Shown here piece after piece: positions 44,384-52,084 of a stretch of 64,000 nucleotides of DNA (the stretch's first letter is position 1; every line of letters starts with the position of its first letter). The notes beneath the pieces were generated by a model. It had not been told where the DNA came from, ran no database searches, and worked only from the letters and a program-made list of their open reading frames with translations. The translations under genes were made by a program, and so were the position numbers. The DNA comes from Natronomonas salina (GTDB taxonomy: Archaea > Halobacteriota > Halobacteria > Halobacteriales > Haloarculaceae), in NCBI RefSeq assembly GCF_013391105.1, contig NZ_CP058335.1:2356001-2420000 (forward strand). Direction: 5' to 3'.

Positions 44384-45354
44384 GTCGCGGCCGGTCCGGT
44401 GAGCCCTCGGTCCCGCGCCGCCAGCAGCAGCCTGGCGACGACGCTCAGCAGCGGCACCTCCACGAGCGGCCCGACGACGAGCGCCAGCGCCACCAGCGGC
44501 CGGTGAGGGAACGTCGCGACGGCGATGGCCAGCGCCGTCGGCGAGTTCCGCGAGAGCGTCGTGCAGGCCAGACAGACCGTCTCGCCGTGGTCGAACCCGA
44601 GGAGCCGGCCCAGCAGCAGCGCGAGCGCGAGGTTGACGGCGTAGAAGGCGACCACCGGGACGGCGACGAGCGCCAGCACGCCCGGGCGGGCGACCACGAG
44701 GTCGGCCTGGGAGGCGACCATCGCCGCCACGGCGGCGGTCAGCGCCAGCACCTGCACGTCGGACAGCGACGGTTCGACGCGGCGGTATGCCCGCCGGGCG
44801 CGACCGCTCCGCTCGACGGCGAGCCAGCCGACGGCGACGACCGCCAGCGGCACGCCCAGGACGAGTCCGAGCCCCTCTGCGAACACCTGGAGGTCGACGC
44901 CGGCGACGGTGCCGGCGAACAGCAGGATGTAGACGGGCAGCAGGACGAGCTGGAAGAGGAGGTTGTAGGGCAGCAGCGTCGCCGCCAGCTCGACGTCGCC
45001 GTCGGCGACCCGGGTGAAGAAGAGGTACCAGTCGGTGCAGGGCGTGACGAACAGCATCAGGAGGCCGAGCCGGAGGTCCGGTTCCCCCGCGAGGAAGACG
45101 GCGCCGAGGCCGACCGCCAGCAGCGGGCTCCACAGGAAGTTGACGCCGAGGCTCGTCGCGACCATCCGGCGGTTACGGAGGCCGCGGCGGACGCCGGCGA
45201 CCCTGAGCCCGCCGAACAGCGCGACCAGCATGCCGACGAGGAACGGCAGGACCAGCGCCTCTCCGGCGGCCGCGACCGGCGGCGACTGCCCGGCGACGAG
45301 GCCGACCGCGACGGCCACCGCGATGAGCTTCGTCTGGTGCCGTTCGAGGTCCAC
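44380..45354 (-). CDS. ACR3/bile acid:sodium symporter family transporter
   Basis: A 324-residue membrane protein with about ten hydrophobic segments. LFVTPCTDWYLFFTRVADGD (conserved Cys in PCT) and CLACTTLSRNSPTALAIAVA recall ACR3 arsenite and BASS-family porters. I chose the GTG at 45354 (VDLERHQTKL); the frame is open back to a GTG at 45423, which would overlap the repeated element at 45431. Substrate could be arsenite, pantothenate-like acids or other anions, and no arsR or arsenate reductase gene is adjacent. Confidence 0.8.
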   Translation of the reverse strand: MDLERHQTKLIAVAVAVGLVAGQSPPVAAAGEALVLPFLVGMLVALFGGLRVAGVRRGLRNRRMVATSLGVNFLWSPLLAVGLGAVFLAGEPDLRLGLLMLFVTPCTDWYLFFTRVADGDVELAATLLPYNLLFQLVLLPVYILLFAGTVAGVDLQVFAEGLGLVLGVPLAVVAVGWLAVERSGRARRAYRRVEPSLSDVQVLALTAAVAAMVASQADLVVARPGVLALVAVPVVAFYAVNLALALLLGRLLGFDHGETVCLACTTLSRNSPTALAIAVATFPHRPLVALALVVGPLVEVPLLSVVARLLLAARDRGLTGPAAT

Positions 45355-45430
45355 GTCGGCGAGTCGGCCGCTCGCCGCTTCAGGGTTGGTGTCACGGCGA
45401 GCGCGATGAAGGAGAGAAACCACGACACGA

Positions 45431-45607
45431 GCATCCGCGCGAGCGTAGCGAGCGCGGTTCCCCCGCGGGCGGCCGGAGGCCGGCCGCGGGTAGCGAGCGC
45501 CGACTAACGCGGCCGGGAGGGCCGCGGCTGGAGGCGCTCGCGCATATTTTCCCCACGTTTTTGCCGCGAGGCGCGGTGGAGCCGCGCCGAGCGTGCAAAA
45601 AGTGGTG
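45431..45607 (-). repeat. Dispersed structured element, copy A (downstream of the NmrA-like gene)
   Basis: Read on the minus strand it begins 3 bp after the stop of the gene at 45608. Constant blocks shared with copy B (50086-50329) are CCACTTTTTGCAC, GGCAAAnACGTGGGGAAA followed by ATATGCGC, CCTCCAGCCG, GCGTTAGTCG, CGGCCTCCGGCC and GGGAACCGCG. Between them lie hairpins whose stem sequences differ from copy B but remain complementary, for example GCGGCC/GGCCGC here. TTTTTGC and GCAAAAA also pair with each other. It is probably a structured 3' RNA or a small non-autonomous mobile element. Confidence 0.7.
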
Positions 45608-46510
45608 TTACTGCATCGCCTTGACCCAGCCGGGGACGGCGGCCATCCCCTCCTTGTCCGCCCAGCCGTGCTCGCGGAGGTAGGTCTCGAGGTCGGTGAA
45701 CTCGAAGCCGAAGGTGTCCTCGAGCGCGTCGATGTCGGCGTCGTAGCCCACCTCGTTGAACCACTCGCACATGACGGTGAACTCCTCGCCGAAGCTGTCG
45801 TAGGCGTCCTCGATGGGGACGTGGACGGGTTCGACGTCGATGCCGGCGACCTCGGCGATGGTCTCGGCGGTCTCGGCGAGGGTGCGGTCGTCGCCGGCGA
45901 GTTCGTAGCGCTCGCCGACGAACGACTCGGGGTCCGCGAGGGCGACGGCGGCGGCGCGGCCGACGTCGTCGACGTCCACCATCTGGAGGGAGACGCCCTC
46001 CTCCAGCGGCAGCGCGAGCGTGCCGTCGTCGACGACGTCGTCGACGAACGCCTCGAAGTTCTGGAAGAAGAACACCGGCGCGAGCGTGGTCAGCGGGAGG
46101 TCGAGGTCCCGGGCGTACCGTTCGATCTCCCAGGCGGAGTCGAAGTGCGGGACGCCGGTGTCCTTCCAGTGGCTACCGACGCCGCTGAAGACGAACTGGT
46201 CGACGCCCTCCTCGGCGGCGACGTCGGCGAGGTGCTTCCCCTGCTGGACCTGGCCGTCGTACCCCTGGGTCCAGAAGTTCGTCACCGCGAAGACGGCGTC
46301 GGCGCGGTCGACGTGGGGCCGCAGCGAGTCGGGGTCGTCGAGGTCGCCCTCGACCATCTCGACGCCGCGGTCGGCCAGTTCCCGGGCGGCCTCGCCGGAA
46401 GCGTCGCGCGTGAGGCCCAGCACCTCGAAGTCGGTCTCCGAGGCCAGCAGGTGGTCGACGACCGACCCGCCCTGGTTGCCGGTGGCGCCGGTGACGAGGA
46501 CGGTCGTCAT
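45608..46510 (-). CDS. NmrA-like NAD(P)-binding protein
   Basis: A 300-residue Rossmann-fold protein. The nucleotide loop is TGATGNQGGSV (6-16). LGLTRD with EMVEGDLDDPDSL follows, then FVFSGVGSHWKD. It lacks the YxxxK catalytic pair of classical reductases, as in NmrA/HSCARG redox sensors, which respond to the NADPH/NADP ratio. It could alternatively be a quinone or isoflavone reductase relative. Its stop is followed almost immediately by repeat copy A. Confidence 0.85.
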   Translation of the reverse strand: MTTVLVTGATGNQGGSVVDHLLASETDFEVLGLTRDASGEAARELADRGVEMVEGDLDDPDSLRPHVDRADAVFAVTNFWTQGYDGQVQQGKHLADVAAEEGVDQFVFSGVGSHWKDTGVPHFDSAWEIERYARDLDLPLTTLAPVFFFQNFEAFVDDVVDDGTLALPLEEGVSLQMVDVDDVGRAAAVALADPESFVGERYELAGDDRTLAETAETIAEVAGIDVEPVHVPIEDAYDSFGEEFTVMCEWFNEVGYDADIDALEDTFGFEFTDLETYLREHGWADKEGMAAVPGWVKAMQ

Positions 46511-46614
46511 CGGCCGTTCACCTCCGTCGGGGTGGTCGTTCCGTTCGACGTTGCGCTCGTCGTCGTGTCGACAGGGGGTATCATCTCGTCACCGGCTACG
46601 GCGCTGGCGCCCAT
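46507..46614 (-). CDS. Possible 35-residue upstream ORF
   Basis: A short frame, MGASAVAGDEMIPP then a Thr-rich stretch ending TPTEVNGR. Its TGA overlaps the ATG of the NmrA-like gene by 4 bp, the junction seen between real translationally coupled genes in this window. No TATA element is evident and the composition is low-complexity, so it may be a leader peptide or simply untranslated leader. Confidence 0.3.
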   Translation of the reverse strand: MGASAVAGDEMIPPVDTTTSATSNGTTTPTEVNGR

Positions 46615-46678
46615 ATCCCTTCGGCGAGACCGATGCAACCACGTGACGGCGGTGTTACCGGCGCAGTCGCGCCACCGA

Positions 46679-46688
46679 ACACTTATCT
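46679..46688 (+). promoter_or_regulatory. TATA box of the RNase P RNA gene
   Basis: CACTTATCT-type element centred about 27 bp before the predicted 5' end of the RNA at 46711. Confidence 0.5.
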
Positions 46689-46710
46689 CCGGGAGTCGCC
46701 TAGCCGGACA

Positions 46711-47099
46711 CGGAAGAGGAAGCCCGGTCCCCGTGGGCTCTCCCGGCGTCCGCGCCGGGGCGGCCCATGAGGAAAGTCCCCCCACCCTCCGGGCAGGTGA
46801 CCGGGCGCAAGCCCGGAGCGGGAGACCGCTGGCGCTGGAACAGAAACGAGACCGCTTCCGTCGAGTGATGAGGCGCGCGGGCCCACCGGCCCGTGGCGCT
46901 CGCGGCCCCGCCGCGAGCGCGCGAACCGACCCGCGAGGGGAGGGAGTTGACCCGCCGAACGTCGACGCGGAAGGACGGGTGGAACGGCGAATCCTCACCG
47001 GTGCAAGCCCGCCGCGCATGGTAGCCCGGAGACGCGGCGGGCGCTCAGCCGAATGCCGGGTCGAAACAGAAGGGGGCTTACTATCCTCAGCCGATTCCG
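46711..47099 (+). ncRNA. rnpB: RNase P RNA
   Basis: The catalytic RNA that trims the 5' leader of tRNA precursors. The universally conserved regions are readable: ATGAGGAAAGTCC near 46778 (CR I with P4), an internal CAGAAACGAGACC near 46841, and the 3' hallmark AAACAGAAGGGGGCTTAC at 47064-47081 (CR V with P4). Pairing of CGGAA-GAGGA (46711-46720) with TCCTC and TTCCG at the 3' end gives a plausible P1, and CCCGGT with GCCGGG gives P2. The resulting length of about 389 nt suits an A-type archaeal RNA. Exact ends are uncertain by perhaps 10-15 nt. Confidence 0.92.
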
Positions 47100-47174
47100 A
47101 GACCGCCGAACCGCCGGTTTCACTCGCTGAATCACTCCGAGGGGTCTTTCTCGAGCAGGGAGTCCACCGTATCG

Positions 47175-48176
47175 ATGGTTCGACCGGCGGTCGCGGTGGC
47201 GGTGACAGTCGTCCTCGTCCTCTCGGGGTGCGTGGGAGCGGCGGAACCCGGCGCGATCGGGCAGGGGTTCAGCGGCGACCCCGACAACCACTGGCAGGAG
47301 TCGGTCCTGACGGTGAGCTACGAGGCGCCCGCCGGCGACGACCGCGACTACCGGCCGCTGGTCCACGAGGCGCTGGTCTACTGGACCGAGCACAGCGAGC
47401 GACACGCCGGTTACGACGTAAGCTTCCGGCACGCCGAACCCGGCGAGACGGCGGACGTCCACGTCGAGTTCGTCGACTCCGTCGGCGACTGCGGCGCGGC
47501 CGCGGGCGCACGGACCGCCGGCTGCGCGCCGGTCATCACGAAGAGCCGCCAGGTCAGCCGCCCGGTGGGCCTGGAGGTCCAGACGAACCTCTCCGACGAG
47601 TCGACCGTGGCGGTGCTGAAGCACGAACTCGGCCACACGCTCGGGCTCACGCACGACGACGGCCCGGCGGGCGTCATGAACGCGACGATCGACCTGGAGA
47701 CGCTCCCCCGGACGGACGCCGGCGACCGGGCGACGCCGTGGCGGAGCGACGACCTCGACGTCTACGTTGACGTCGGCGCGGCCCCGGACCCCGCCGCCGC
47801 GGAACGGCAGGTCGGCGCCGCGCTGCGCTACTACATAGACGGCGCCAGCGGCACCGTCCCGGAAGACGTCACGTTCTACCGCACAGACTCGCCCGAGAAC
47901 GCGGACGTCGTCGTCAGGTACGCCGGATCCGACGCCTGTCGCGACGCCGCCGGCTCCTGCGGTACCGTCTCCGGCGACGACGTGGACGGCGACGACGCCC
48001 TGGAGTACCACGACCGCCTGGAGATCGTCCTCGTCGACCTCGAGACGGACGCGGTCGCCTGGCACGTCGGCCGCTGGCTCGGCACCGGGTTCGGCCAGGA
48101 CGACGCCTCGGAGTACCCCGACCCGCTCCGCCCGGACAAGGGCTACGCCGAGCGGCGGAGTACCTGGTGGGAGTAA
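47175..48176 (+). CDS. Matrixin-like metalloprotease lipoprotein with degenerate second repeat
   Basis: A 333-residue exported lipoprotein (lipobox VLSGC near residue 19). The metzincin site HELGHTLGLTH has zinc ligands His150, His154 and His160, followed by the Met-turn GVMN. The second half looks like a copy of the first: LDVYVDV... mirrors LTVSYEA..., ADVVVRY mirrors ADVHVEF, and AVAWHVGRWLGTGFG stands where VAVLKHELGHTLGLTH would be. The copy has lost the catalytic Glu and two of the three ligands, so it is probably a non-enzymatic domain. It follows rnpB by 75 bp. Confidence 0.85.
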   Translation: MVRPAVAVAVTVVLVLSGCVGAAEPGAIGQGFSGDPDNHWQESVLTVSYEAPAGDDRDYRPLVHEALVYWTEHSERHAGYDVSFRHAEPGETADVHVEFVDSVGDCGAAAGARTAGCAPVITKSRQVSRPVGLEVQTNLSDESTVAVLKHELGHTLGLTHDDGPAGVMNATIDLETLPRTDAGDRATPWRSDDLDVYVDVGAAPDPAAAERQVGAALRYYIDGASGTVPEDVTFYRTDSPENADVVVRYAGSDACRDAAGSCGTVSGDDVDGDDALEYHDRLEIVLVDLETDAVAWHVGRWLGTGFGQDDASEYPDPLRPDKGYAERRSTWWE

Positions 48177-48189
48177 CGGCAGAAGGCGG

Positions 48190-48558
48190 TCAGTTCGCGC
48201 CGTCCTCGAGCGGACAGACGCGCTCGAGGGAGTCGTCGACGAACTCCGCGTAGTCGGCGGTCCGGTGGCTGGTCGTCAGCATCGCGCTGAGGAAGCGGTC
48301 CTCGGCGCGGTCGGAGGCGTCCTGCGTGGCGTCGAAGCCGTCGTCGACGCGGGCGCGGACGCCGGAGACGTCGGCGCCGGTCGTCCGCTCGACGGCGTTC
48401 AGGGGCAGGTGACTCGCGGTGCGGGCGGCGGTCAGGCTCTCCCGCTGGATCGTCGATCCGGTCGAGATCACCTCGAACAGGGTCCGGCTGGCTCGTCGCT
48501 GGGTCTCCAGTACGCTCGGCAGCGGTGATCGGGCACCGCCTGGTAGGAATCCTCGCAT
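48190..48558 (-). CDS. Haloarchaeal hypothetical protein
   Basis: A 122-residue helical protein. Amphipathic helices are predicted across SVLETQRRASRTLFEVISTGSTIQ and DRAEDRFLSAMLTTSHRTADYAEF; one Cys lies near the C-terminus. No domain is recognised. A TATA-like GGTTTATCC (minus strand, about 48600-48609) lies upstream of the ATG at 48558 with a leader of about 20 nt. It is convergent with the matrixin-like gene. Confidence 0.65.
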   Translation of the reverse strand: MRGFLPGGARSPLPSVLETQRRASRTLFEVISTGSTIQRESLTAARTASHLPLNAVERTTGADVSGVRARVDDGFDATQDASDRAEDRFLSAMLTTSHRTADYAEFVDDSLERVCPLEDGAN

Positions 48559-48881
48559 GGTAATCGCTCGCGCGTGCTACCAAAGGACACACGAGATACG
48601 GATAAACCTTGTGCACGATTCAGCGGGTAACCGGCTCGAGACTGTCGTGTTCGGCCATATCGGTGGCAGCGAACGCGAGTAACAGTCGCCTTCGGCGGCG
48701 GCCTCTGGTGTCAACGAAACGACGACAGTGCCGTCGCCTTCTCCGTGATTAGCCGGGCTGTAATCGGCCGGCCGGCGACTCGAGGGTCTCGCTCCCGACC
48801 GTCGCTCCGGCCCTCGCTACTCACGGGTCGCTTCGCTCCCCGTTCGCATTTCCGAGACTCCTCGCTGCGCTCGGAGTCTCG
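48559..48881. other. Intergenic region with promoter and terminator hairpin
   Basis: About 320 bp between two minus-strand genes. The left end holds the promoter of the hypothetical gene at 48190; the right end holds the hairpin directly after the M29 aminopeptidase stop. In between are G+C-rich inverted repeats such as GGCCGGCC and GAACGGGGAGCG/CGCTCCCCGTTC-type stretches. I see no gene here. Confidence 0.5.
48853..48881 (-). terminator. Hairpin directly after the M29 aminopeptidase stop
   Basis: CGAGACTCC (48853-48861) and GGAGTCTCG (48873-48881) form a perfect 9-bp stem with an 11-nt loop. It touches the stop codon at 48882-48884. Haloarchaeal termination signals are poorly defined, so a role in transcript stability is also possible. 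Confidence 0.45.
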
Positions 48882-49991
48882 CTACTCCTCGAACCCCTCT
48901 TCGAACACGAACGTCCCGTCCCGCTGGACGACCTCGCCGTCGACGGCCATGTACGAGTCCTCGGAGACGTTGGTGATCATGTCGACGTGGACCGCCGACT
49001 GGTTGCCGGTCTCGCCCTCCGGGAGGTTCGAGTCGTAGGCGCGGCCGACCGCGAGGTGGACGGTGTCGCCCATCTTCTCGTCGAAGAGGATGTTGTCCGT
49101 GAAGCGGTCGATGCCGCGGTTCATCCCGATGCCGAGTTCGCCGAGGCGGCGGGCGCCCTCGTCGGTGTCGAGGATCGACGCCAGTTCGCGCTCGCCCTGC
49201 TCGGCGGCGAAGTCGACGACCTCGCCGCCTTCGAACGTCAGGTGGACGTCCTTGACTCGCTGGGCGTTGATGGTCATCGGGACGTCGAAGAACACCTCGC
49301 CCTCGGTGGCGTACGGCGCGGTGAACACCTCGCCGGAGGGGAGGTTGTGGGAGTCGTAGGCCACCGAGGCCGCGGAGTTGACCGCCGTGCGGCCCTCGAT
49401 GGACATCGTGACGTCGGTCGGGGGCTGGTCGTCGCGCTCCTTGACGATGCGGACCTCGCTGCCCTCGTCGAGGATGGCCTTCATCTCCGCCATCGTCTCG
49501 GCGAGGGTCTCCCAGTCCCGGAGGACGGCGTCGTAGACGAACGCCTGGTACTCCTCGTAGGCCATGCCGGCCTGCTGGGCGAGGCTCCGCGTCGGGTGGA
49601 CGGTCGAGACCCAGTCGGTGTCCATCCGCGCCTCGCGGGCCTCGCTGTTGGCCTTCGAGTAGGCCTGCCGGAGGTCGCTGGAGACGTCGGCCGTCGCGGT
49701 CGTGTTCCGACCACCGCCGAGCCGGAGGTACGCGTCGGCGTTCTCGATCAGCGCGAGCTGGTGGTCGCCGGCCCCGAAGTCGCCGTCGTGGCCCTTGAGG
49801 TACGCCCGCAGCACCTCGTCGGAGCCGTAGGTCGTGACGACGTTGGCGCCGGCCTCGCCGAGCTTCTCGGCGACGGCGACGGCGAGTTCGTGGGCGTCCT
49901 CGGCGACGTCGACGACGACGTCGTCGCCGGACTCGATCCGCGCGCTCCAGTCGACCAGCACCTCGGCGTGCTCGCGTACGCGTTCGTCCAT
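48882..49991 (-). CDS. M29-family aminopeptidase
   Basis: A 369-residue cytosolic metallo-aminopeptidase of the thermophilic (M29) type. Metal ligands are expected in EGGEVVDFAAEQGE (Glu), LGELGIGMNRGI (Glu), and TVHLAVGRAYDSN with HVDMITN (His, Asp), all of which are present at the usual positions. A TATA box at 50013-50021 (minus strand GTATAAACC) lies about 26 bp before the ATG at 49991, so the message is leaderless. Confidence 0.9.
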   Translation of the reverse strand: MDERVREHAEVLVDWSARIESGDDVVVDVAEDAHELAVAVAEKLGEAGANVVTTYGSDEVLRAYLKGHDGDFGAGDHQLALIENADAYLRLGGGRNTTATADVSSDLRQAYSKANSEAREARMDTDWVSTVHPTRSLAQQAGMAYEEYQAFVYDAVLRDWETLAETMAEMKAILDEGSEVRIVKERDDQPPTDVTMSIEGRTAVNSAASVAYDSHNLPSGEVFTAPYATEGEVFFDVPMTINAQRVKDVHLTFEGGEVVDFAAEQGERELASILDTDEGARRLGELGIGMNRGIDRFTDNILFDEKMGDTVHLAVGRAYDSNLPEGETGNQSAVHVDMITNVSEDSYMAVDGEVVQRDGTFVFEEGFEE

Positions 49992-50012
49992 GGCGTCGCT
50001 TCGTCGCCCGGC

Positions 50013-50021
50013 GGTTTATAC
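50013..50021 (-). promoter_or_regulatory. TATA box of the M29 aminopeptidase gene
   Basis: GTATAAACC read on the minus strand, centred 26 bp upstream of the ATG at 49991. Confidence 0.6.
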
Positions 50022-50085
50022 GTTCGACACGGCGCTCCGAACAAGAGGCGCAGCTTCGACTGGCCGAGCAAGCATTTGGGGGTCA

Positions 50086-50329
50086 GCATCCGCGGGAGCG
50101 GAGCGACCGCGGTTCCCGGCGACGAGGCCGGAGGCCGAGTCGCCGTAGCGTTCGGAAATCGCCAAGGCGATTTCCGCAGCCCATCAGAAGTGCTTCGCAC
50201 TTCTGAGGACGCCCGACGACTAACGCTGGCCCGAACGCAGTGAGGGCCAGCGGCTGGAGGAGGGCGCGCATATTTTCCCCACGTATTTGCCGGGCCGGCT
50301 TCGCCGGCCCGTGCAAAAAGTGGGTGTCC
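50086..50329 (-). repeat. Dispersed structured element, copy B (downstream of nirA)
   Basis: It shares the constant blocks listed for copy A in the same order and orientation, and begins directly after the nirA stop. The variable hairpins differ: GGGCCGG-CTTCG-CCGGCCC replaces the copy A stem next to the T-run, and GCTGGCCC/GGGCCAGC replaces GCGGCC/GGCCGC. About 65 bp of extra hairpin sequence (GAAATCGCC/GGCGATTTC and CAGAAGTGC/GCACTTCTG, 50153-50207) is inserted between GGCCGGAGGCCG and CGACTAACG. With the short stretch 49992-50085 it fills the gap before the M29 gene, and no gene is visible there. Confidence 0.7.
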
Positions 50330-52084
50330 CTAGTCGTCGCTGGCGGCCGGCGCCGGCGAGTCGGCCATCTCGGACTCCTCGGCGTAGGGGTACCACGTCA
50401 TCTTCGTGTTGCCGAGGTAGGGGTCCTCGTAGGAGGTCTCCTCGGGTTCGGCGAGGCCGTTGAGGTCGTCTTCCTCGTGGCGGGCGATGAACTCGCGGAA
50501 GGACTCGCCGTCCTGCCGGCGCTCCTCGTAGATCGAGAGGAGGTTCTGGACGTAGCCGGGCACCTCGTCGGCGGCGACGCGCATCTCGACCCACTCCGCG
50601 AAGTGCGGGTTCTCGCCGAGGCCGCCGCCGAGGCCGATGTCGAAGGCCTCGACGGGCTCGCCGTCCTTGCGGGTCTTCATGCCGCGCAGTGAGATGTCGG
50701 CGATCTGCGGCTGGGCGCAGGAGGCGGTGCAGCCGGAGAGGTGGATGTGGAAGTCCTCGACGCCCTCGGGGACGTCGACGTTGTCCTTCAGCCAGCGGGC
50801 GTAGCGGACCATCCGGTTCTTCGTCTCGACGATGGACAGCGAGCAGTACTCGGTGCCGGTGCAGGCGATGGAGCCGCGCATGAACGGGTGCGGGTCCGGC
50901 GAGTAGGTCTCCAGCAGCGGCTCGGCGAGGAAGTCGTCGAGGTCATCCTCGGCGATGTCGGCGACGATGACGTTCTGCCGCTGGGTGAGGCCGACCATCT
51001 CGGAGCCGTATTCCTCGGCGAGGTCGGCGAGTTCGACGACGTCTTCGGCGCCCATCCGCCCCGTGAGGACGGAGAGGCCGACGAAGTACTGGCCGTCGGT
51101 CTGCTCGTGGACGCCGACGTAGTCGCCGGTCTCGTCGTTGCGGCCGGCGTTGTAGGTGTACTGCTCGCGCAGGTCCTCGCCGGCGGACTTCAGCTCGAAG
51201 TCGACGTAGTCCTCCTGGAGGACGCGGCGGACCTTCTCGGGCCCCCACTCGTCGACGAGGAACTTGATGCGGGCGTTGAAGCGGTCCTCGCGGTCGCCGT
51301 GGTCGCGGAACAGCGCCGAGAGGCCGCCGGCGACGTCGGCGACCTCGTCCGGGGTGACGAAGACGTCGATGTTGCGGGCGAATCGGGGCTCCTTCCGCGA
51401 GAGGCCGCCGCCGACGGTGACGTTGAATCCCTTCACGTCCTCGCCGTCGATCTCCTTCGTCGCGGGCTCGAAGCCGAGGTCGTTGATCTCGGCCTGCCCG
51501 GAGCCGCGGGTGTCGCCGGTGACGGCGACCTTCCACTTCCGCGGGAGGTTCGAGTGGTCGTCGTTGCCCTTGAACGTCTCGTTGAGCTCCTGGATGACCG
51601 GCCAGGCGTTGACGTGCTCGTCGGCGTCGCGGCCCGCGACGGGGGAGCCGACGATGTTCCGCCAGGAGTCACCGCAGGCCTGCTGCGTCGAGAGCCCGTT
51701 CGCCTCCAGCTTCTCGAAGATGGCCGGGACGTCCTGCAGCTGGATCCAGTGCATCTGGATCGACTGGCGGGTCGTCCAGTCGCAGTAGGCGCCCCCGAAC
51801 TCGGGGTTGTCGACGGGGCCGCGGGCGTACTCGTCGGCGATCTCGCCGACGACCCGCAGCTGGTCGGGCGTCATGCGGCCGTTCGGCGTCCCGATGCGCA
51901 TCATGAAGTACGACTCCTGGCCCTTCCGCTGGTGGTACAGACCCCACCACTTGAACCGCTCGAACCAGGCGTCGCGCTCGTCCTCTGGGATGGAGCTCCA
52001 TCCCTCCTCCGCGAACTGGAAGAGGTGGTCACGGATCTCGTTCCCGTAGACCTCGTCCTTCCAGCCCTCGACCTTGCTCGGCAT
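50330..52084 (-). CDS. nirA: Ferredoxin-dependent nitrite/sulfite reductase
   Basis: Six-electron reduction of nitrite to ammonia (assimilatory) or of sulfite to sulfide; 584 residues. Two ferredoxin-like half domains are present, and the siroheme-[4Fe-4S] ligands appear as CTGTEYC (Cys-X5-Cys, near residue 395) and CTASC (Cys-X3-Cys, near 435, in HLSGCTASCAQP). Haloarchaeal NirA has this length; sulfite reductase cannot be excluded because no nitrate reductase gene is nearby. A TATA box (GTATAAGTACC, near 52105-52114) supports a leaderless ATG at 52084. Confidence 0.88.
   Translation of the reverse strand: MPSKVEGWKDEVYGNEIRDHLFQFAEEGWSSIPEDERDAWFERFKWWGLYHQRKGQESYFMMRIGTPNGRMTPDQLRVVGEIADEYARGPVDNPEFGGAYCDWTTRQSIQMHWIQLQDVPAIFEKLEANGLSTQQACGDSWRNIVGSPVAGRDADEHVNAWPVIQELNETFKGNDDHSNLPRKWKVAVTGDTRGSGQAEINDLGFEPATKEIDGEDVKGFNVTVGGGLSRKEPRFARNIDVFVTPDEVADVAGGLSALFRDHGDREDRFNARIKFLVDEWGPEKVRRVLQEDYVDFELKSAGEDLREQYTYNAGRNDETGDYVGVHEQTDGQYFVGLSVLTGRMGAEDVVELADLAEEYGSEMVGLTQRQNVIVADIAEDDLDDFLAEPLLETYSPDPHPFMRGSIACTGTEYCSLSIVETKNRMVRYARWLKDNVDVPEGVEDFHIHLSGCTASCAQPQIADISLRGMKTRKDGEPVEAFDIGLGGGLGENPHFAEWVEMRVAADEVPGYVQNLLSIYEERRQDGESFREFIARHEEDDLNGLAEPEETSYEDPYLGNTKMTWYPYAEESEMADSPAPAASDD

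Follow-up and report, generated by a model that had tools for sequence, protein, structure and literature searches.

What is the structured element that occurs twice, each time immediately behind a stop codon, in a 64,000-nucleotide (nt) stretch of the Natronomonas salina chromosome (NZ_CP058335.1, positions 2,356,001 to 2,420,000; hereafter the window)? The initial annotation, made from this DNA alone, described two copies with the same blocks in the same order and orientation, hairpins that had been exchanged between the copies but were still complementary, and a start just past the stop codon of a minus-strand gene, and all of this is borne out. Both copies lie on the minus strand, copy 1 starting 2 nt past the TAA (45608-45610) of an NmrA-like gene and copy 2 starting 6 nt past the TAG (50330-50332) of a nitrite/sulfite reductase gene, and their opposite-strand folds are far more stable than those of shuffled sequences (z scores in Table 1). 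They differ in length because two additional hairpins are inserted in copy 2 (about 50152-50209), an insert of a type that recurs elsewhere as a clean presence/absence module. To judge from its sequence, the element resembles an exchangeable signal that halts RNA polymerase from either side, and not a classic RNA gene.

The two copies belong to a large family. When copy 1 was compared with its own genome by blastn, 53 matching pieces were obtained at roughly 40 places. A covariance-model search, proposed with the initial annotation and carried out with a model built from 26 copies, found 39 places in this genome, far beyond a coincidence of two copies. Within the genus, where genomes were compared at the species level, copy counts are uneven (75, 39, 34, 34, 28, 23, 20, down to 0-2), the lowest coming from several nearly complete genomes. 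The model, R1, mostly misses type B and the short type of the element (see below), and the per-genome totals are therefore lower bounds. Among named genomes, a diagnostic pattern matched only Natronomonas and unclassified metagenome-assembled genomes of the Halobacteriales; in an order-wide sample, searched with stricter filters, 24 of 293 genomes contained a match, mostly in the same family. No match was found in plasmid and phage collections. In the window, only RNase P RNA and a tRNA scored above the Rfam thresholds, the archaeal RNase P RNA gene (46712-47092, plus strand) sitting between the two copies, and a permissive Rfam scan of 45000-50700 gave a single weak match within the element, to Cupriavidus-1 (29.6 bits against a cut-off of 45.5). 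A literature search, which most subscription journals fell outside, found no paper on this element family. The family is amplified in some Natronomonas lineages and hence also behaves as a dispersed repeat. What had been suggested as a possible new RNA family is no conventional, conserved non-coding RNA but a family of repeats that was amplified in particular lineages and exchanges its hairpins.

The position of the element relative to genes is tightly constrained. Among 94 model matches, 79 have a same-strand stop codon 0-20 nt upstream and 73 have it at 0-6 nt, whereas a position chosen at random in these loci lies within 10 nt of a stop in only 0.36% of cases. When all three subtypes are considered (142 copies), a native stop codon precedes 109, at a distance of 0-7 nt in 105 of them, which supports the link to gene 3′ ends that had been proposed. 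In another 27 copies the element begins ahead of a start codon on the opposite strand, for the most part at a distance of 39-49 nt. We read these 27 copies as sitting at a promoter edge, just outside the transcription factor B recognition element (BRE)/TATA region that a leaderless haloarchaeal gene is expected to have. The other six fit neither class, at least two of them being gene-caller failures, and one copy (L027) follows what reads as a tRNA-like 3′ end. The gene context, established for 113 copies, is convergent in 58, codirectional in 33 and 17, and divergent in five, against 11 convergent, 25 codirectional and 12 divergent among the 48 gene pairs of the window; convergent gaps are thus enriched (p = 9e-4) and divergent ones depleted (p = 3e-4), with genes called by a codon-position GC heuristic and a small baseline. 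Convergent gaps are short, and codirectional copies likewise start 0-7 nt from the stop despite free space downstream. The element-adjacent stop codon is more rarely TGA (4 of 27) than stops elsewhere in the same genome (22 of 48; p = 0.01). The idea that the element provides its own stop codon was rejected, as the stop is found at its native position in orthologues of the nitrite/sulfite reductase.

Read in the same direction as the upstream gene (the minus strand in the window), the element begins with stem P1, CCACTTTTTGC-A-C-[hp1]-GGCAAAAAC-K-TGG, where hp denotes a hairpin; the 5′ arm CCACTTTTTGC is near-invariant across 26 aligned copies of this genome. It continues with GGAAAATATGC and an outer stem, P2, around CTCC..hp2..TAGTC, followed by CTAC, hp3, GAACC and hp4, which ends in GCGGATGCT. 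Full elements contain several hairpins and have a median length of 183 nt; the outer 3′ border was set by the conserved GCGGATGCT and may run a few bases further. Two further types accompany the long type A: the short type, CCCACTTTTTACT...GGGGAAAAAC, lacks P2, and type B has exchanged basal P1 pairs, with CGAC/GTCG or CGAA/TTCG in place of CCAC/GTGG. All three have a P1 with T5/A5 and a stem beside an A-run. In an alignment of 94 distinct copies, which was fitted to the model, paired cells make up 91.9% compared with 79.9% in shuffles, double-change cells number 207 compared with 48, and the covariation score is 0.215 compared with 0.056, a signal that is lost when the partner is slid by one column. 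Both sides have changed in 18 of the 28 modelled pairs, and P2 occurs in three exchanged versions, each still complementary, so the view that the covarying stems reflect selection on paired structure gains support.

Elements frequently form tail-to-tail pairs in one intergenic region, often of one long and one short subtype (L101, L103, L106, L110, L111 and L114 in G010/G001/G016; L017 in G000). At G003:C1:2763332-2763632, three type B pattern matches have an exact spacing of 142 base pairs (bp), which suggests a tandem array of elements.

The two strands of the element are markedly unequal. The hairpin core CTC-N-CTNCG-N′-TCG is found 92 times in the gene's sense and once reversed, N and N′ being complementary in 89 of the 92. 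On the opposite strand this core reads CGA-N-CGNAG-N′-GAG, a GNA triloop with tandem sheared G-A pairs, motifs of high stability, and the strand opposite to the adjoined gene is the better folder in 84 of 89 copies; G-U wobble asymmetry was equal between the strands and is uninformative. A run of T4-6 followed by C is present on the opposite strand in 131 of 135 copies, across three subtypes that differ in sequence, and in types A and short a stem ends 0-5 nt before this run in 110 of 112. In 81%, no more than 5 nt separate the T-run from a terminal stem that is 5 bp or longer; the figure is 33% for shuffles and 36% for TTTTC sites elsewhere. On the gene-sense strand, CTTTTTGC stands immediately behind the stop. 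A T stretch with C behind it is the termination motif that has been mapped in haloarchaea: intergenic termination sites of Haloferax volcanii have a T stretch with a conserved TC, T5C gives 95% termination in vivo, and some of the sites are preceded by hairpins (PMC7237163).

The other genes in the window have no run of four or more T within about 15 nt of their stops, and the element therefore appears to bring its own T-run. Insertion into pre-existing terminators was rejected on the same ground, and a terminator-targeting miniature inverted-repeat transposable element (MITE), another early suggestion, is not supported: the T-run is apparently the element's own, and the element's ends, CCCACTTTTTG and GCGGATGCT, are not mutual inverted repeats, with no consistent duplication at the flanks. 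Since the hyperstable features lie on the strand opposite to the gene, a folded 3′ untranslated region (UTR) is not the obvious product. The early description of a 3′ UTR or terminator element at stop codons thus stands as regards modular, terminator-like content and location, but the hyperstable strand is the one opposite to the adjoined gene and about a fifth of the copies adjoin a promoter instead.

The position of the element persists while its sequence is replaced. Fifteen sites were compared in three sister genomes whose coding flanks are about 96% identical, and they are filled at the same position; the subtype differs at no fewer than six of the 15, and hairpins have been exchanged at most of the others. 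The hp1 of L104 is the exact reverse complement of hp1 of L110 in another species, and a 56-nt two-hairpin module, of the family also found inside window copy 2, is present in L249 and absent from L243, with the same pattern in L245/L237. No clean whole-element empty site was found among the orthologous sites of the three species, because the absences (the L106 and L109 groups, L240) coincide with a changed neighbouring gene. At L219/L230 (G010:C1:1077356-1077700), a type B element lies between diverged direct repeats of about 57 bp, which contain the end of the convergent gene and are possibly a long target duplication. At six loci (L015, L016, L018, L036, L042, L100) the full 5′ end has a partial second one, CCCACTTTT..GCA, ahead of it, which gives the impression that an older element was replaced there by a newer one.

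Replacement is also seen behind the thermosome gene. Model matches in three other genera, g23 (seven genomes), g25 and g27, lie at the end of a gene ending GGMGGMM, identified by position as thermosome (PF00118). Behind the stop at 27 thermosome 3′ ends, class I (P1 with its T-run) is found in five and class II, a different hairpin string that lacks a T-run and carries the GA motif in the direction of the gene, in four; in g23, about a dozen of 30 genomes have class I and some have neither class. Class II takes the place of P1, with the 3′ half of class I retained, in G174 and G256 and also in G218, G149 and G110 (compared with G194), and it lies between the stop and class I in G246 and G314. 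These swaps mark the gene border as a site of repeated replacement. A string of the class II kind is also present in the window at 48779-48881 (CGAGACTCCGAGCGCAGCGAGGAGTCTCG, then CGGGGAGCGAAGCGACCCG), directly past the stop (48882) of an M29 peptidase gene, its GA motif in the gene's sense as behind the thermosome genes.

The abutment of the 5′ end, the terminator-like order on the opposite strand, the T5 in the sense strand, the avoidance of divergent gaps and the layout kept through replacement lead us to read the element as a modular, structure-conserved, bidirectional transcription terminator or insulator, a proposal to which we give about an even chance; on the best reading it would disperse in the manner of REP/BIME or PATE/SMR repeats. 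Its 5′ end would lie flush with the border of a functional unit, whether this is a stop codon or the outer promoter edge. A polymerase leaving the adjoined gene would meet CTTTTTGC right behind the stop, whereas one coming from the other side, from a convergent gene, an upstream tandem gene or antisense transcription, would transcribe the hyperstable hairpins, immediately afterwards T4-6-C and then T5, and would therefore stop before the adjoined gene or promoter. Hairpins would be interchangeable as long as folding is kept, whether swapped, inverted, nested or replaced by another subtype, with position and architecture persisting. Copy number, covariation, placement, strand asymmetry, the stem and T4-6-C order and the turnover between orthologous sites can be read from the sequences; from these we infer that the copies terminate transcription, are retained because they do so, and move. 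A repeat like REP/BIME or PATE/SMR would likewise be in keeping with the amplification, the nesting and the strand bias, and the two readings are compatible. More doubtful is the further step that a mobile, hairpin-swapping family integrates precisely at transcription-unit borders and installs a two-way terminator there, as a self-spreading insulator.

Several observations weigh against a terminator. In codirectional type A copies the hairpin side faces only antisense transcription, and the need for a hairpin terminator is unclear. The class II strings without a T-run in the place of P1, in the five genomes named above, would not be tolerated if a terminator were strictly required, and this displacement is the main evidence against such a requirement. 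A simple scan for bacterial-style terminators gave no match in either window copy on the proposed strand; its rule requires 5 T among the 8 bases that follow a stem whose loop measures 3-8, and these T4C copies fall outside it. Finally, many sister genomes have no element at the corresponding gene ends, so the function would be dispensable there.

Comparison with known systems gives partial matches. Like the REP/BIME sequences of the GTAG and CGTC kinds, the elements are dispersed, mosaic intergenic palindromes, mostly downstream of genes and in convergent and codirectional gaps (PMC3733652); some REPs also lie close to stop codons (PMC12306157), and rarity between divergent genes is common to both. 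However, a GTAG REP is a single hairpin of 20-40 bp with GTAG at one end, in contrast to the longer, multi-hairpin element with its invariant T5 stem, opposite-strand T4-6-C and flush 5′ end, and, unlike in REPs linked to RAYT transposases, the PF01797 counts in the genus do not follow those of the element. PATEs and SMRs of Haloquadratum walsbyi are likewise haloarchaeal, transposase-free, palindrome-bearing repeats without target duplication, and SMRs insert into palindromes of other repeats, to which the nested modules here are comparable; PATEs have near-terminal palindromes related to the ends of IS605-type transposons, and the available part of their description does not mention placement at stop codons or promoter edges (PMC3119063). 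Filled and empty sites of the PATE type are seen here for the nested modules, with no clean case for the whole element at the orthologous sites of the three sister species. The terminal inverted repeats and target-site duplication of a MITE are absent, whereas a stable stem with a T-run within a few nucleotides, as in intrinsic-type terminators, is present on the opposite strand. With the H. volcanii terminators the element shares the T-run followed by C and hairpins upstream of some sites (PMC7237163), but those signals belong to single genes, while here a dispersed family has a common architecture and the stem and T4-6-C order on the strand opposite to the adjoined gene. Integron attC sites and group IIC introns seem unlikely, given the scattered chromosomal copies and different end motifs.

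The same features can be explained without selection for termination. We consider it somewhat unlikely that the family is a selfish, non-autonomous repeat of the REP/BIME or PATE/SMR kind, mobilized in trans by a transposase that acts on its folded single-stranded DNA. The hairpins with GNA loops and tandem GA, specific to one strand, would then be single-stranded DNA recognition structures, and stop codons and promoter edges the only tolerated, or the targeted, sites. The spread from 0 to 75 copies inside one genus, the nested modules with clean filled/empty pairs, the exact L104/L110 inversion and the 92:1 asymmetry speak for such a repeat, as do the haloarchaeal transposase-free precedents, with small repeats inside PATE palindromes (PMC3119063), and the placement of REPs downstream of genes (PMC3733652). 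Yet neither a clean whole-element empty site nor a consistent target duplication was found, nearly all tested sites are common to sister species, and codirectional copies hug the stop where downstream space remains. An IS200-type (Y1, PF01797) transposase as the driver was rejected, since gene counts do not track copies (75 copies and one gene in G002, no copies and five genes in G008).

A structured 3′ UTR RNA of the adjoined gene, acting in mRNA stability or translation termination or as a processed small RNA, would account for the tight placement behind stop codons and the strong covariation, including a U-G pair kept on the gene-sense strand at one P2 position in 33 copies, and would parallel Escherichia coli REPs, which stall ribosomes when within 15 nt of a stop (PMC12306157). 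We regard it as improbable: in 84 of 89 copies the gene-sense strand folds less well than the other, and it would have tandem U-C mismatches in place of the tandem G-A pairs of that strand, the T5 directly behind the stop is expected to end the transcript ahead of the structure, and 27 copies are at an opposite-strand promoter and not at a same-strand stop. Least probable of all is neutral debris, that is, hairpin strings produced by template switching during replication and by ectopic gene conversion, with no selected role. Hairpin inversion, wholesale hairpin exchange at orthologous sites and the other related hairpin strings in haloarchaeal intergenic DNA, class II modules included, are in keeping with this, but the conserved P1, T4-6-C and CTCC/AGTC motifs, the exact 5′ abutment in most copies and the strand bias would be unexpected.

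Table 1. Parts of the two element copies in the window
Feature	Coordinates	Strand	Remarks
Copy 1 (type A, long)	45431-45607	-	adjoins stop codon of NmrA-like gene 45608-46510; fold z -5.7
Copy 1 P1 5′ arm CCACTTTTTGC	45595-45605	-	T5 run on the gene-sense strand, 2 nt past stop
Copy 1 opposite-strand T-runs	45547-45563	+	TTTTC 45547-45551 and TTTTTG 45558-45563, immediately after P2 stem
Copy 1 P2	45493-45541	+	outer stem 45493-45501 / 45533-45541; from covariation and fold
Copy 1 hp2, inside P2	45508-45526	+	enclosed by the outer stem, as are the GACTAA / CTGGAG motifs
Copy 1 hp3	45462-45490	+	from fold
Copy 1 hp4	45435-45457	+	GA/GNA motif CGAGCGTAGCGAG at 45440-45452; from fold and motif orientation (92:1)
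Copy 2 (type A, long, with insert)	50085-50329	-	adjoins stop of nitrite/sulfite reductase gene 50330-52084; fold z -9.6
Copy 2 P1 5′ arm CCACTTTTTGC	50313-50323	-	T5 run, 6 nt past stop
Copy 2 TTTTC	50273-50277	+	opposite strand, after P2 stem
Copy 2 P2 outer stem	50210-50266	+	arms 50210-50214 / 50262-50266; from covariation and fold
Copy 2 hp2	50224-50252	+	CGAACGCAGTGAG motif at 50232-50244
Copy 2 nested two-hairpin module TCCTCAG-hp-TGATGGGCTGCG-hp-CGAACG	50152-50209	-	not in copy 1

Archaeal 3′ ends are poorly understood, and in this compact genome convergent genes are often less than 25 bases apart. The family marks the borders of transcription units and keeps its layout of stem and T-run with nearly all of its sequence replaced, and its turnover between sister species amounts to a natural mutagenesis series for archaeal termination and insulation. 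Terminator activity would make these elements a case of dispersed repeats that were domesticated as terminators, or that spread because they terminate; a self-spreading insulator, if true, would remodel transcription stop points across the genome.

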